Origin: a virus
Reading direction: 5' to 3' (one strand)
Virus record (IMG/VR): IMGVR_UViG_3300008448_000553
Location: 1 to 25,903 of that record
Length of the DNA stretch: 25,903 nucleotides
The position numbers were made by a program, and so were the translations under genes. Shown piece by piece: positions 4,524 through 11,008 of the stretch; positions within the stretch are counted from its first letter, which is position 1, and each line of letters opens with the position of its first letter. The notes beneath the pieces were generated by a model. That model saw nothing but the letters and a program-made list of their open reading frames with translations, did not search any database and was not told the origin of the DNA.

Positions 4524-5198
4524 TCAACCACAAGGAACGTGCACGGCACGCCCGGCTTCTGTAGCGTCGGGGTCTGCTTTTGACAAGTCGCTCGTCATAC
4601 TGGCGGCGAAGGCCAGCAGGTCAGCCGCCTGGGCCTTGGCCCGCTCGACCAGTGTCCTGATCTGTTCGGGCGTCAGGATCTCGGTGTAGCGGCTCGTCAC
4701 CATGGCCTGAACAGACGACTTGCCTCGGCCGATGGCCTCGCCGATGTCAGCGGCCGTCGCATTGCTGACAGCCTTGTAACGGGCAAGGATAGGTTCACCC
4801 TCGGTGCGGAGGCGTTCAGGTGCAGCCCTCTGCGAGGGCACAGGAGGCGCGACAAGGCCGGCGGGCATCTCGACCGCCTGGGCCTTAGGTTCGGCCTCCC
4901 TGCGCGCTCCACAGGCCATGCACCGGCCGTTGGCTGCGATGGCCTCGGTGCATCGATCGCCGCGATCCTCTCGACAGGGGTCGAGGTGGACGGACGGCGC
5001 GACGGTTGGGGGCTCTGGCGGGTCGAGGGCCTCGGCCTCCTCCACTAGCAGCGCGAGGGTCAACGGATCCTCGGCCTCGGTATCGCGGCCAGCCGACAAG
5101 AGGAGCGCGGCGATTTCCGCGCGCCTCTCGCCGGGGCTCATAAGCGCAAGGGTCGGATCAGCCGCGAGGGCCAGGGCGACGGGGTCAGGGGCGGTCAT
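4524..5198 (-). CDS. Hypothetical protein with Cys cluster and possible HTH
   Basis: A 224-residue protein. The N-terminal third is acidic and helical. The middle has C75, C83, C93 and C96 (ending GRCMACG), a possible zinc site. A Pro/Ala-rich linker follows. The C-terminal part contains ATAADIGEAIGRGKSSVQAM at about 147-166, with the spacing of a helix-turn-helix, then a helical tail (EQIRTLVERAKAQAADLL). It could be a phage DNA-binding regulator, but the HTH call is by eye only. The ATG at 5198 overlaps the upstream stop as ATGA, so it is expressed with the 98-residue protein. It is the last gene before the hairpin at 4482-4515. Confidence 0.72.
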   Translation of the reverse strand: MTAPDPVALALAADPTLALMSPGERRAEIAALLLSAGRDTEAEDPLTLALLVEEAEALDPPEPPTVAPSVHLDPCREDRGDRCTEAIAANGRCMACGARREAEPKAQAVEMPAGLVAPPVPSQRAAPERLRTEGEPILARYKAVSNATAADIGEAIGRGKSSVQAMVTSRYTEILTPEQIRTLVERAKAQAADLLAFAASMTSDLSKADPDATEAGRAVHVPCG

Positions 5199-6229: not shown

Positions 6230-6278
6230 CAATCTCTTTCTATAGCCCGTTTTCTACAGTGTCAACAGGCTATAGAAA
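6230..6278. promoter_or_regulatory. Divergent promoter-like inverted repeat
   Basis: TTTCTATAGCC (6237-6247) and GGCTATAGAAA (6268-6278) are perfect 11-base inverted arms 20 bases apart. On the minus strand the left arm reads GGCTATAGAAAGAGATTG (6247-6230), very close to GACTACAGAAAGAGACGG at the plus-strand motif 8478-8495. The minus strand also has TTGACA at 6265-6260, with TATAGA 15 bases or TAGAAA 17 bases further on, so a host sigma-70-type promoter is an alternative reading. It lies upstream of the minus-strand genes at 6100, 5825 and 5491. Confidence 0.5.
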
Positions 6279-6302
6279 AAAAGTTACAGAGGGTCGAAAG
6301 CC

Positions 6303-6577
6303 CCATGGGCTTTAGGTCTGGCCATTGGCCGCGAAACCTAGACGCTAGGCGCGCCACGGTTCCCCGGCCGTGCTCCAAAATGCCACGGCGCAATCTGTCG
6401 CCGCGCTCTCGATAAATGCGTTCCGCTTTTCTTCGGACGGATCCGCCTGATAAGCCGAATGCGCGAGACGTGCGGCCGTGGCGATTTGAGCGGCTATCGC
6501 TCGCGCGGCTTTAGGGTCTCGCGTCGCGTGATAGTCGGCCAGGGTTAGGCGTGCTGGATTTTCCATGGGCTTTAGGT
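6303..6577. repeat. 15-base leader repeat, one copy without a gene
   Basis: CCATGGGCTTTAGGT occurs at 6303-6317 and 6563-6577. On the minus strand both read ACCTAAAGCCCATGG. The copy at 6563-6577 holds the start codon of the 73-residue gene. The ATG of the other copy (6306) opens only 14 codons before a stop, inside the promoter-like region. Confidence 0.75.
6345..6566 (-). CDS. Hypothetical helical protein
   Basis: A 73-residue Ala-rich helical protein (MENPARLTLADYHATRDPKAARA start, SAATDCAVAFWSTAGEPWRA end). The ATG at 6566 is preceded by ACAACCACAACGGAACCTAA, a variant of the repeated leader. A longer in-frame reading starting at 6800 is Arg-rich, overlaps the next gene and is not credible. 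No motif is recognised. Confidence 0.65.
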   Translation of the reverse strand: MENPARLTLADYHATRDPKAARAIAAQIATAARLAHSAYQADPSEEKRNAFIESAATDCAVAFWSTAGEPWRA

Positions 6578-6907: not shown

Positions 6908-6959
6908 AAAGCGGCCTAGAAGCCCGTCGGACGGATCCGACGGGAAACTAGGCCGCTTT
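6908..6959 (-). terminator. Nested two-stem hairpin at the 3' end of the 249-aa gene
   Basis: The outer stem AAAGCGGCCTAG (6908-6919) pairs with CTAGGCCGCTTT (6948-6959), 12 base pairs. After a three-base by three-base internal loop, the inner stem CCCGTCGGA (6923-6931) pairs with TCCGACGGG (6936-6944), 9 base pairs, with a four-base loop (UCCG on the minus-strand RNA). It overlaps the last base of the stop codon of the upstream gene. Only TTT follows the stem in the minus direction, so it may be a terminator, an RNase processing site or an mRNA-stabilising end. Confidence 0.65.
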
Positions 6960-7708
6960 CAGGCCGCGAGGGCCACGGGGGCGCCGTTACGCGTTAGGGC
7001 GAAGCGTGCGGCCTTGCCGGGCCCGTGCACGATGATAACGGGCGACGCTTTGGCCTTGCTATCGGTCCCCATACAGGCGCGACACGTTGCGCAGTCTGTC
7101 TTGTACCCGGCTTCCTTTGAAGCGGGACAAACGAATTCGAGCTTAGGCGCGACAGGCTCAGACGCGTCGCGGATCCGGAATGTTCGCCAACCGGCCAAGC
7201 GCGCTTCGAAGCCTTCGCCGACATTGTCCGCGCTTGCCATTGTCAGACGCTTGAAACCGTCGGGCGCCGTTCGCCATTGATGCGTGTACCCGGTCCACGC
7301 GTCGGCCTTCGAAACTAACGCGTCCCATATAGCCACGGGCGCAGCGGCTGGATCCCCATAAGCGCCAAGCCTAACAGTCCGGCCTTCGCATGCGTCGGCC
7401 GCTTCGGCGAGGGTTAGGCGAGGGTAGCTACCGCGCTTGTAAGCGCGATACACGGAAAGCGGCGCCTCGTGCACGCGGACATAACAGACACCGCCAAGCG
7501 CGGGTCTATGGGGACACTGGCCACAGACGGAAGCATCGTCGCCAGTCTTAAGCGCCGCATGCGGTTCGGTATCGGCGCGGAGGATCCAAGTCTGGATCAT
7601 GTCCCCCGTTTTTTCGTTACGGGATTTGGCGTCTAGGCCCGTGGCAATGACGACGATCGGCGCGCCGTCTAGCAGCGACGGGCCTTCGAAAAGGATAAAG
7701 CTATTCAT
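6959..7708 (-). CDS. Conserved phage protein with Cys clusters (DUF7227-like)
   Basis: A 249-residue protein with a pattern I associate with an uncharacterised phage family (DUF7227-like). Near the N-terminus is KTGDMIQTWILR, then ASVCGQCPHRPALGGVCYV (cysteines at about 62, 65 and 75), then PLSVYRAYKRGSYP, a central domain with GYTHQWR, and near the C-terminus CPASKEAGYKTDCATCRAC. The cysteine groups are probably one or two metal sites; an iron-sulfur cluster or zinc is possible. The start at 7708 follows a leader with three CCACAA repeats and AAGGGAACC. It ends in the nested hairpin. Leucine codons include CTA and CTT far more than in the virion genes. Function unknown. Confidence 0.8.
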   Translation of the reverse strand: MNSFILFEGPSLLDGAPIVVIATGLDAKSRNEKTGDMIQTWILRADTEPHAALKTGDDASVCGQCPHRPALGGVCYVRVHEAPLSVYRAYKRGSYPRLTLAEAADACEGRTVRLGAYGDPAAAPVAIWDALVSKADAWTGYTHQWRTAPDGFKRLTMASADNVGEGFEARLAGWRTFRIRDASEPVAPKLEFVCPASKEAGYKTDCATCRACMGTDSKAKASPVIIVHGPGKAARFALTRNGAPVALAA

Positions 7709-7743
7709 CGGTGCGGTTCCCTTGTGGTTGTGGTTGTGGTTGG
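7709..7743 (-). promoter_or_regulatory. 5' leader with triple CCACAA repeat
   Basis: On the minus strand the leader of the 249-residue gene contains three tandem CCACAA hexamers (7739-7722), then GGGAACCGCACCG and the ATG. The hexamer is the core of the other leaders in this arm. An A/C-rich unpaired leader of this sort can enhance ribosome binding; that role is inferred. Confidence 0.55.
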
Positions 7744-7747
7744 CGGT

Positions 7748-8116
7748 TTAGGCGTCGGCTATCAGGCGCGCCATAGCGGCCCGCGCTTCGGCGATAGCTT
7801 CTGGGATAAGGTCGGCCGCAATCTCTGTCAGATAGGCGTTATCGGACCCTGGGAAGTTAGCTTCGATACCCCAAAGCGCGGCGCCGTACGGGCCGGTTAG
7901 GTCTATTCCGGCGCGCGAGACTTGAACGCATACCCCGCAAAAATACCAATCATTGTCGTACCAAGCACGAACGTTTGCGTCATCGTAGCACTCGTAATCT
8001 TCGGGCCGCGTGCTTTCGTCGTACACGATGCGCGCCGTTACGGCGAAGCCGTCAATGACGGTTTGAATAGTGTCGCCAGTGCAAACGAAACGATCGAAGC
8101 TAGAAGCGTATGTCAT
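7748..8116 (-). CDS. Conserved hypothetical phage protein
   Basis: A 122-residue protein (MTYASSFDRFVCTGDTIQTV start) with DYECYDDANVRAWYDNDWYFCGVCV in the middle, then SRAGIDLTGPYGAALWGIEANFP and the helical end AYLTEIAADLIPEAIAEARAAM. Uncharacterised phage proteins with D-x-x-CYD...V-AW-D-W and LWGIE blocks look alike. The start at 8116 follows CCACAAAAGGCCACAGAGA. It is the first gene of the minus arm, so it would be transcribed first from the divergent region. Function unknown. Confidence 0.77.
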   Translation of the reverse strand: MTYASSFDRFVCTGDTIQTVIDGFAVTARIVYDESTRPEDYECYDDANVRAWYDNDWYFCGVCVQVSRAGIDLTGPYGAALWGIEANFPGSDNAYLTEIAADLIPEAIAEARAAMARLIADA

Positions 8117-8137
8117 TCTCTGTGGCCTTTTGTGGTT

Positions 8138-8163
8138 GTGGCGCCCGGTTCCGGGCTGGCCAC
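8138..8163 (-). other. Leader hairpin upstream of the 122-aa gene
   Basis: GTGGC (8138-8142) pairs with GCCAC (8159-8163), and GCCCGG (8143-8148) pairs with CCGGGC (8151-8156), with a two-base bulge (8157-8158). The tip must open a pair to form a loop. It lies immediately 5' of the CCACAA leader of the gene at 8116. Confidence 0.4.
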
Positions 8164-8250
8164 TGATAACTAGCACTATCCGGACGCATTGCAATAGCTT
8201 TTTTCGTATAGGCCTTTTCCCCTTATAAATCAGTGCCGTTCGCGTAAAGG

Positions 8251-8273
8251 TTTATAGCCGGAAAAAGTGGTAG
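8251..8273 (-). promoter_or_regulatory. Bipartite promoter-like motif facing the early arm
   Basis: On the minus strand this 23-base element reads CTACCACT, TTTTCC, GGCTATAAA. It agrees with the plus-strand copy at 8348-8370 at 19 of 23 positions with no gap. It points toward the first minus-strand gene at 8116. Length and bipartite layout resemble promoters of single-subunit phage RNA polymerases; that identity is inferred. Confidence 0.55.
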
Positions 8274-8362
8274 CATACTAGGTTGTGCGCTCGTAACCCT
8301 TTGAAACTAGGCAGGTATTTTTGTCCCTCCCTAGTGTATTACCAAACTTACCACTTTTTCCG
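8259..8362. repeat. 14-base inverted repeat
   Basis: CGGAAAAAGTGGTA (8259-8272) and TACCACTTTTTCCG (8349-8362) are perfect inverted copies 76 bases apart. They are the shared parts of two oppositely directed promoter-like motifs, and could also be arms of a binding-site pair. Confidence 0.85.
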
Positions 8363-8370
8363 ACTACAGA
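8348..8370 (+). promoter_or_regulatory. Bipartite promoter-like motif, first virion-arm copy
   Basis: TTACCACT, TTTTCC, GACTACAGA. The two outer blocks are identical to those at 8464-8486 with the same six-base spacing. It points toward the small-terminase-like gene and the virion cassette. Confidence 0.6.
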
Positions 8371-8387
8371 CCCTAAGCACGGTGTGA

Positions 8388-8409
8388 AGAGGGGCTGAAA
8401 GTCCCCTCT
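8388..8409 (+). other. Hairpin between the two plus-strand motifs
   Basis: AGAGGGG (8388-8394) pairs with CCCCTCT (8403-8409) over an eight-base loop. No T-tract follows on the plus strand (CTTCCCACG), so a classical terminator is unlikely. It would sit in the 5' leader of a transcript from the motif at 8348-8370. Confidence 0.4.
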
Positions 8410-8463
8410 CTTCCCACGCGTCGGGTGCTCGCTAGTGCACTGGTAAGGGTTAGGTGCACCTAG

Positions 8464-8486
8464 TTACCACTGAAAAAGACTACAGA
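8464..8486 (+). promoter_or_regulatory. Bipartite promoter-like motif, second virion-arm copy
   Basis: TTACCACT, GAAAAA, GACTACAGA, followed by AAGAGACGG. The six-base middle differs completely from the copy at 8348-8370, while both outer blocks are conserved. That is what a functional bipartite site should show. The gene start at 8581 is 95 bases downstream. Confidence 0.6.
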
Positions 8487-8580
8487 AAGAGACGGCCGTG
8501 GCCTTGCAGCCTAGAAGCCGGTGAAACGAGGACGTTACCCTGAAACGATTTTGTTGTTAGAAGGGGAGAAGGGCGAATAA

Positions 8581-9339
8581 GTGGTTTTTCACGGCATTCC
8601 GCCTCTTCGCCTAGCAGGCGACAAGCAAACAACCGCAAAGGCTAGCACCGTGCCTCAACGTCCTAACCACCCGCCCTTTGAGAAGGGCAACACGTTCTCC
8701 AAAGGTCGCCCCAAAGGTTCGCGCAATGCCGTGGCGAATAAGTTCTTCGAGGACTTGCATGGCCTTTGGCAAGAGCAAGGTGAAGCGGTGCTAAGGCGTG
8801 CCGCTTTTGAGAAGCCTATGGAATTCGCTTCAATGGTCGCAAAGCTAATGCCCCAAAAGCTCGAGATATCAACGCCGACGGACGGCCTATCAGACGACCG
8901 TTTCGCCTCCCTGATAGACCTCGCCGAACGTATGGCGACACTCAAAGCGGGCGCGGCGCCCTCTATGACGATCGAGGGAACGGCCAGGTTGCTAGAAGGG
9001 GAGGGGGGGAGCCCCCGCGCCGGCGACACACGGGGGGAGGTAATAGACGTCGCGCCCTATACGACCGACAATCCCAAACCGCTTTCCCACCTTCTCGACC
9101 TGCCGGCTCCAGCCCCTGTCCAGCCCACCAAGCTGTCCAGTCTAAAAGCCGAAACTGTCTACAACGATTTGAGCCCGACCACTGGCCAAACAGCCACAGA
9201 GCCGACCGAACTCCAGACAGACAGCCGAAAACACATTCCGAAAATTGGGCCGGGCGAAATTCCGACGACCAAAATCTCCAGCCTCAAGCCCGTGGCCACG
9301 ACCCCCGACGAGGAGATTGACCCCGCTTCGCTGTTCTGA
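8581..9339 (+). CDS. Small terminase-like protein (DUF5681-type N-terminus)
   Basis: A 252-residue protein starting GTG after AAGGGGAGAAGGGCGAATAA. Residues 32-50 (PFEKGNTFSKGRPKGSRNA) are the basic K-G-x-x-x-x-x-GRPKGSRN signature seen in DUF5681-type proteins, usually encoded next to the large terminase. The following helical segment (FFEDLHGLWQEQGEAVLRRAAFEKPMEFASMVAKLMPQKLEI, to about residue 96) matches the same family. The likely role is DNA recognition for packaging. The C-terminal half is Pro/Thr-rich and probably disordered, with two TK(L/I)SSLK repeats at 183-189 and 230-236 and an acidic end. An alternative GTG start at 8650 would remove 23 residues. The gene is followed by a strong terminator. 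Confidence 0.72.
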   Translation: MVFHGIPPLRLAGDKQTTAKASTVPQRPNHPPFEKGNTFSKGRPKGSRNAVANKFFEDLHGLWQEQGEAVLRRAAFEKPMEFASMVAKLMPQKLEISTPTDGLSDDRFASLIDLAERMATLKAGAAPSMTIEGTARLLEGEGGSPRAGDTRGEVIDVAPYTTDNPKPLSHLLDLPAPAPVQPTKLSSLKAETVYNDLSPTTGQTATEPTELQTDSRKHIPKIGPGEIPTTKISSLKPVATTPDEEIDPASLF

Positions 9340-9459: not shown

Positions 9460-9540
9460 ATGGCTACAACAATCCTCTGCATTGCCATCCTCTGCGCCCT
9501 CATCGGCGTATTCCTGCCCATGGACCGCCGCCGTGGCTGA
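9460..9540 (+). CDS. 26-residue single-pass membrane microprotein
   Basis: ATG at 9460 opens 26 codons to TGA at 9538-9540. The product is a hydrophobic stretch (TTILCIAILCALIGVFLP, residues 3-20) followed by a basic tail (MDRRRG). This predicts one membrane segment with the C-terminus in the cytoplasm. A CAGGA site lies upstream. The large terminase GTG at 9533 sits within its last codons, giving the overlap GTGGCTGA. The same eight-base overlap occurs at the tail tubular A/B junction (17622-17629), which supports real translation. Alternatively it is a leader peptide that only serves to deliver ribosomes to the terminase start. No known family is recognised. Confidence 0.5.
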   Translation: MATTILCIAILCALIGVFLPMDRRRG

Positions 9541-11008
9541 CGAGAACGAAATCCCGCCCGACGACGATGCCTCAGCCGAAGAGTGGGCGGCGTTTGCCAA
9601 ACGCCTGCGCAAGGCGCGTGACGAGAAGATCGCCTCCGACCGCCTTGGCCACTACAAGCCCTACGCCAAGCAGCAGGAGTTTCACGAGCTTGGAGCCCTG
9701 CCCGTCTACGAGCGGCTCTTCATGGCCGGCAACCAGTTGGGCAAGACGTTCGCCGGCGCGGCCGAAACAGCCATGCACCTCACCGGGCGTTACCCGATCT
9801 GGTGGAAGGGGCGTCGGTTCGACAAGCCCATCTCTGCCCTGGCCGGATCCGAGAGCGCCGACCTGACCAAAAAGGGTGCGCAGCGACTTCTCGTCGGTCC
9901 GCCTGAAACCGAGAGCGCCTGGGGCACTGGCTACATCCCGCGCGACGCCATCCTCGATACGAGCCGCAAAGCCGGTGTGCCTGACGCCCTCGACACCGTC
10001 GTCGTCAAACATGTCAACGGTGGCGCATCGACCATCAGCTTCAAGTCCTACGATCAGGGCCGTGCCAAGTGGCAGGCCGATACCGTCGACTGGGTGTGGT
10101 TCGACGAAGAGCCGCCCGAAGACGTCTACTCCGAAGGACGGACGCGGACCAACGCGACCAAAGGGTCCGTGATCCTGACCTTCACGCCCCTCCAAGGCAT
10201 GTCGAACGTCGTGCGGCGGTTCCTCAACGAGAAGAGCCAGCACCGCGCTGTCATTCGCATGACCATCCACGACGCGGAGCACTACACCGATGAAGACCGA
10301 GAACGCATCATCGCCGGCTACCTCGACCACGAGCGAGACGCCCGCGTTTCTGGCATCCCTATCCTGGGGTCCGGTCGTATCTTCCCTGTCTCTGACGCCC
10401 AGATCTTGGTCGCACCTTTCCATGTTCCAGCCCATTGGCCTCGGATTGGCGGACTTGACTTCGGGTGGGATCACCCGACCGGAGCCGTCGAACTCGCTTG
10501 GGACCGAGACACCGACGTCGTCTACGTCCTGCGAGAACACCGCGCCTCAAAGCTGACGCCCGACCAGCACTCGCTCATCATCGGTCCAAAGAAGTGGGGC
10601 AAGCTGAAATGGTCGTGGCCGCACGATGGACACGTTGCCGACAAAGGCACCGGGCAGGGGCTGGCGAAACAATACAAGGCAGCGGGGCTCGATATGCTTC
10701 AAAGCCACGCCCTCTGGCCAGACGGCTCCAATTCGACCGAAGCCGGCGTCATGGATATGCTACAGCGCATGAACGACGGGCGCTGGAAAGTCTTCGACGG
10801 CTTATGTCCGCTATGGATGGAAGAGTTCCGGATGTACCACCGGGACGAGGGCAAGATCGTCAAGGAGGACGACGACCTATTGTGCGCATCGCGCTATGCC
10901 TTGATGATGCTGCGTTACTCGCGTATCGTCCAGGACGAACGGCACCCCTTTGGGTTCTACGATCGCAAATCGCCCGTCGCCGTCGGCACAGGCGAGGTCA
11001 ACTGGTGA
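9533..11008 (+). CDS. terL: Terminase large subunit
   Basis: A 491-residue protein from the GTG at 9533. The ATPase domain has AGNQLGKT at about 65-72 (Walker A) and VWFDEEPP at about 187-194 (Walker B plus catalytic Glu). The nuclease domain has GGLDFGWDHPT at about 305-315 (first metal-binding Asp) and a second acidic block DGHVADKGTG near 364-373. Together these define the packaging motor: ATP-driven translocation into the procapsid and cutting of concatemers. A TTG 17 codons upstream (9482) is also in frame, but the GTG overlaps the microprotein stop as GTGGCTGA, as at the tail tubular A/B junction. Unlike T7, where the terminase is at the end of the late region, it heads the virion cassette here. 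Confidence 0.95.
   Translation: MADENEIPPDDDASAEEWAAFAKRLRKARDEKIASDRLGHYKPYAKQQEFHELGALPVYERLFMAGNQLGKTFAGAAETAMHLTGRYPIWWKGRRFDKPISALAGSESADLTKKGAQRLLVGPPETESAWGTGYIPRDAILDTSRKAGVPDALDTVVVKHVNGGASTISFKSYDQGRAKWQADTVDWVWFDEEPPEDVYSEGRTRTNATKGSVILTFTPLQGMSNVVRRFLNEKSQHRAVIRMTIHDAEHYTDEDRERIIAGYLDHERDARVSGIPILGSGRIFPVSDAQILVAPFHVPAHWPRIGGLDFGWDHPTGAVELAWDRDTDVVYVLREHRASKLTPDQHSLIIGPKKWGKLKWSWPHDGHVADKGTGQGLAKQYKAAGLDMLQSHALWPDGSNSTEAGVMDMLQRMNDGRWKVFDGLCPLWMEEFRMYHRDEGKIVKEDDDLLCASRYALMMLRYSRIVQDERHPFGFYDRKSPVAVGTGEVNW

Follow-up and report, generated by a model that had tools for sequence, protein, structure and literature searches.

Promoters of T7-type phages have the consensus core CACTATAG, and the specificity loops of T7-type polymerases read the bases around -14 to -8. 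Promoters of the N4 virion RNA polymerase form a short hairpin centred near -11 to -12 (PMC4496689), and the middle promoters of T4 use no phage RNA polymerase, with the MotA box replacing the -35 element at 12 ± 1 bp from a host -10 (PMC2988021). The -10 consensus of alphaproteobacteria is CTATAT (PMC8844928), and that of Caulobacter is GCTANAWC (PMC8144410). Podophages with T7-like virions but without a polymerase gene must rely on the host enzyme to order their gene expression, in ways that are poorly understood. In the window analysed here, a complete virus entry of 25,903 bases that is probably a genome fragment, a small and conserved region that would serve such control contains a well-defined box and -10-like half, and a protein that may regulate it can be named, which makes the question testable.

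Three repeats between the gene arms

The right arm of the window encodes a putative small terminase subunit (terS), the large subunit (terL), a T7-like portal, scaffold, capsid, tail tubular and internal virion proteins, while the left arm carries small genes, RuvC and an SNF2-type helicase. The start of terS was set at a GTG codon by comparison with relatives. Two close relatives extend this map: L114 continues past the helicase with an exonuclease, an SSB-like protein, DNA polymerase A and a primase-helicase, and L145 continues past the right edge with a tail fibre and an endolysin. As these extensions overlap at the endolysin (92% match between L114:17030-17560 and L145:990-1520), the two arms run apart from 8.1-8.65 kb and meet at the endolysin; the record, L114 and L145 together cover the group's gene map as a composite of different, closely related phages. 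The capsid protein is 42-50% identical to those of HTVC010P-like pelagiphages and of Manatee Spring podovirus MW202898, which by this protein makes the pelagiphage Skadi one of the closest named phages; the divergent regions of MW202898 showed no copy of the motif described below.

A preliminary description of this DNA had reported three gap-free copies of a bipartite motif in the divergent region, and all three were confirmed (Table 1). The chance expectation in shuffled sequence is 0.08 copies at up to three mismatches, none of 100 shuffles reached three copies, and no fourth copy is present in the 25,903-base record at the same tolerance. The copies are spaced by 75 bases (copies 1-2) and 116 bases (copies 2-3). 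As had been noted, the middle six bases of the two plus-strand copies differ at every position (TTTTCC against GAAAAA). Copies 1 and 2 share the middle TTTTTCC and so form a 24-nt inverted repeat (88%) with arms 76 nt apart.

Table 1. Features of the window, with the equivalent sites of two close relatives; positions refer to the window.
Feature	Position	Strand	Description
Candidate box-binding regulator	4524-5198	-	Cys4 (C75, C83, C93, C96) and C-terminal XRE-like helix-turn-helix
First left-arm gene, not conserved	7748-8116	-	no assigned function
Divergent non-coding region	8117-8649		51% GC against 63.5% for the whole record
Copy 1	8251-8273	-	CTACCAC-TTTTTCC-GGCTATAAA; toward the left (replication) arm, first left gene start 134 nt downstream
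Extra half-box TTACCA	8339-8344	+	9 bp upstream of the copy 2 box (TTACCA-AAC-TTACCAC)
Copy 2	8348-8370	+	TTACCAC-TTTTTCC-GACTACAGA; toward the terminase/structural arm
Hairpin AGAGGGG-N8-CCCCTCT	8388-8409	+	between copies 2 and 3; GC-rich, no U-tract
Inverted half-box TGGTAA	8441-8446	+	17 bp before the copy 3 box; within the conserved stretch GGTAARGGTTAGGTGCAC
Copy 3	8464-8486	+	TTACCAC-TGAAAAA-GACTACAGA; closest copy to terS, 163 nt upstream
Putative terS	8650-9339	+	opens the right arm; position beside terL
terL	9482-11008	+	
Sites in L024			CTACCAC-TTTTTCC-GGCTATAAA, TTACCAC-TCCGAAC-GGCTACAAG, TTACCAC-GGCAAAA-GGCTACAGA
Sites in L005			TTACCAC-GGAAGAA-AGCTACAGG, TTACCAC-GGAAAAA-AGCTATTCA

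A scan of the whole collection for the tandem pattern recovered L005/L021 and L024, the other matches being unrelated repeats. A looser pattern, AAACTTACCAC-N7-RRCTA, was rejected as too loose; its matches were chance ones and included no close relative of the record. The divergent region, compared over about 400 bp, is 80-83% identical to those of the close relatives. All three copies are present in L024. In L005 the two plus copies are kept and the left one is decayed; across the three phages the spacings are 74-75 and 116 bp. Copy 1 is identical in L024 and has decayed in L005 to GTACAAC-N7-GGCTACCTA; copy 2 is invariant throughout its box (7/7) and CTACA (5/5); and copy 3 is invariant in its box (7/7) and CTA (3/3), its distance from copy 2 being 116 bp in each of the phages. 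In the three-phage alignment as a whole, 19 of the 21 box positions and 9/9 CTA positions are invariant, against 8/21 in the spacers and 271/394 in the surrounding region, in agreement with the selection on the outer blocks that had been proposed. The 8+6+9 layout first assigned to the copies proved too wide: relatives vary at the T that follows TTACCAC, which reduces the core to TTACCAC-N7-RRCTAYAR. The three repeats are genuine and have been kept in related uncultured phages. In seven phages, GTGGTAA/TTACCAC was also the most enriched 7-mer when divergent regions were compared with the rest of the genome in an unbiased k-mer analysis.

The repeats as probable outward promoters

The conserved copies, their orientation and spacing and the -10-like half support a directional, outward and promoter-like character for the repeats at the level of sequence, and the earlier proposal that they point toward each gene arm is upheld on the same grounds. 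The AT-richness of the region is also in keeping with promoters. We favour, at a probability of roughly 0.6, a joint reading in which the repeats are outward promoters that combine an alphaproteobacterial-type -10 with TTACCAC, a phage-specific box to which a phage regulator would bind. Firing would proceed outward from one divergent control region, with one promoter directed to the left replication arm and two to the terminase/structural arm. RRCTAYAR would act as the -10 for host RNA polymerase with the housekeeping sigma factor, and TTACCAC would sit 9-10 bp before the -10 hexamer, in the usual -35 space, where no -35 element is present. A phage protein on the box would help the polymerase and at the left promoter would possibly block it, and the early left-arm protein in Table 1 would be the leading candidate for this role. 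Since the group's gene map contains no phage RNA polymerase gene, the enzyme that reads the repeats is probably that of the host. We infer promoter activity, host-polymerase use, the identity of the factor and the activation or repression that it would exert.

The CTA half agrees with CTATAT at 4-5 of 6 positions in 8/8 sites, and at only 4/6 in most copies, where a match of at least 4/6 occurs at about 1.6% of random positions; the consensus is alphaproteobacterial, and its use for these uncultured phages, with presumed alphaproteobacterial hosts, is an assumption. CTAYAR/GCTAYARR resembles the -10 of alphaproteobacterial RpoD promoters (CTTGAC-N17-CTATAT; TTGACGS/GCTANAWC in Caulobacter), but unlike these it has no -35 at the right distance. 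Neither CTTGAC-N16-18-CTATAT nor an E. coli-type sigma-70 promoter was found in the divergent region, nor was a -35 at 16-18 bp from the -10, and a classical sigma-70 reading was set aside. A sigma-54 reading was also rejected, GG at -24 and GC at -12 being absent from the eight sites and from the distant sites read. Like the T4 middle promoters, the repeats would, under the proposed mechanism, put a phage box where the -35 normally lies, upstream of a host -10, with no phage polymerase. They differ in the box itself (TTACCAC against the unrelated TGCTTTA of T4), in its spacing (9-10 bp against 12 ± 1 bp) and in number, with three copies in one divergent region rather than dozens genome-wide. 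No MotA or AsiA homologue was found among the proteins scanned with Pfam/PHROGs.

Four more distant relatives (L147, L148, L149 and L151; 67-68% in TerL) have the same layout without the exact motif. Their divergent regions contain GTAGTA-GGTAA-GGTGGTA arrays and a conserved rightward TTGCTAYRNGG, and in all four a degenerate box, YYACMWY, lies upstream of the rightward TGCTAYRNGG at the same offset as in the record. When 7-mers were scored 8-44 nt before the rightward TGCTA (37 offsets), in a test framed after the sequences had been seen, the best box-like 7-mer fell at offset 14, that of the record's box, in 4/4 (TCACCAT, TCACCAT, CTACCTT and TTACAAT, respectively), with a tie at offset 10 in L147; as L148 and L149 are near-identical there, this represents three independent cases. 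No fixed-offset box was found on the leftward side of these relatives, and the distant 23-mer GTAGTA-N3-GGTAA-N2-GGTGGTA was found only in three known relatives. Against the promoter reading weigh, besides the 4/6 match of most -10 halves, the decay of the leftward copy in L005 and the failure to find it at the same spacing in the distant group.

Alternative readings

The copies might instead be operators of a phage repressor or switch protein, with CTAYAR lying within the protein site and transcription starting elsewhere in the region. TTACCA/TGGTAA half-sites without a CTA half, at 8339 (where ACCAAACTTACCAC is invariant across three phages) and 8441, would fit such a role, as would the distant GTAGTA-GGTAA-GGTGGTA arrays, which lie well upstream of the -10. 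However, the halves are asymmetric and the element is directional, close and distant relatives keep the same spacing to CTA, and no better promoter was seen in the region, so that we regard operators alone as unlikely. A packaging site (cosB/pac-like), at which the small terminase would bind the boxes beside its own gene, is improbable. The region is directly upstream of terS/terL, terS is conserved in the same phages, and repeated sites near terS are found in lambda-type cosB; against this, nothing ties the region to a genome end, the contigs of relatives run straight through it, and the CTAYAR half and the outward pairing would be left unexplained. A replication origin with initiator-binding repeats, for which the AT-rich character of the divergent region (44% GC over 8180-8370 against 63.5% record-wide) and the turn of the cumulative GC skew there could be cited, is very improbable, since the skew here follows gene direction and the arrangement, with three copies only, one of them inverted, free spacers and 75/116 bp spacing, differs from tandem iterons.

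The preliminary description had likened the repeats in format to promoters of a phage single-subunit RNA polymerase, which would be encoded outside the window. The repeats do share with T7-type promoters a length of 23 bases, a direction and a CTA near the start, where the T7-type core sits. The search for such a polymerase gene found none: PF00940 had no match in the record, in the 40-43 kb relatives behind L147, L148, L151 and L152, or in L114 and L145, which complete the group's gene map, whereas the positive control, Caulobacter phage S2B, was detected at E 1.6e-109. Searches by tblastn with the polymerases of S2B and Mycobacterium phage jiawei gave noise only. The genome scan for copies before other gene blocks likewise found none, the motif being confined to the divergent region in the record and in the covered genome of the group, and a PWM scan of the full relatives gave no strong extra copies beyond chance-like matches. 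The spacer, which occupies -14 to -8, is the free part of the motif (0/7 invariant in copy 2), so that the specificity region, at about -12 to -8, is not conserved where T7-type enzymes read bases; nor does any copy contain an inverted repeat of the N4 hairpin type. The related HTVC010P-like pelagiphage Skadi is also reported without a viral RNA polymerase (PMC10504331). With no gene and no other copies, two outcomes that the preliminary description had itself named as refuting, and with a free spacer, the polymerase reading is not supported and is extremely unlikely; it is already disfavoured and could be rescued only through a highly diverged polymerase among the unassigned proteins. That the inverted copies 1 and 2 act together as an RNA hairpin or attenuator is just as implausible, because although the 24-nt inverted repeat gives a strong predicted hairpin in the record, the relatives break the pairing, its TTTTTCC middle being lost in L024 and L005 without compensation, and there is no Rfam match.

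Candidate regulator and further elements

The early left-arm protein, gp4524, may be the one that binds the boxes of the proposed promoters. Its four cysteines are conserved. Its relatives give weak Pfam matches to HTH_31 and Xre-like-HTH, below the Pfam cut-offs. The AlphaFold model has a pLDDT of about 90 over residues 137-208 (the helix-turn-helix), and the top Foldseek matches are XRE regulators, with E-values to PDB that are not significant. Among viral contigs the family was found only in phages of this group, and gp4524, RuvC and SNF2 are the left-arm proteins shared with the L147-L151 group; because this co-occurrence with the box is confined to one phage lineage, it is weak evidence of a link. 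An unlikely extension would be a sigma-appropriation-like system, evolved independently of T4, in podophages of alphaproteobacteria, in which the Cys4/XRE-like early protein would read TTACCAC at about -26, replace -35 recognition and redirect the host polymerase to both arms.

Several other elements lie in the divergent region. The stem of the hairpin between copies 2 and 3 is invariant in 3/3 phages, and terminator prediction on the plus strand gave no call there; it may be an attenuator or weak terminator. CCTAG(T) is enriched in the region and occurs shortly upstream of all three copies (8277-8282, 8330-8335 and 8459-8463), and could be a further protein site. Searches for Rfam families and tRNAs gave no match. 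Just before terS, a small hairpin, CGCCT-CTTCGCCTAGC-AGGCG (8600-8620), has in relatives the stem CACC/GGTG (one compensatory change) and an almost invariant loop.

In the left arm, CCACAACCACAA forms a leader ahead of several genes, with a GGA-type ribosome site and the start codon after it (4442, 7732-7738 and 8140 on the minus strand); it occurs likewise in L024, L114 and L005, making four phages, and may be a shared translation leader or an RNA-binding site. The protein encoded at 6959-7708 (minus strand; phrog_2554) is 63-75% identical in S2B and jiawei, which suggests gene transfer. These two phages are Autographiviridae with otherwise differently built genomes; because theirs is a separate lineage that encodes an RNA polymerase, they served as controls only. 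A near-palindrome between left-arm genes, TTTTCTACAG-N10-CTATAGAAAA (6254-6287), overlaps a weak minus-strand sigma-70-like match and has its L024 equivalent at 6337.
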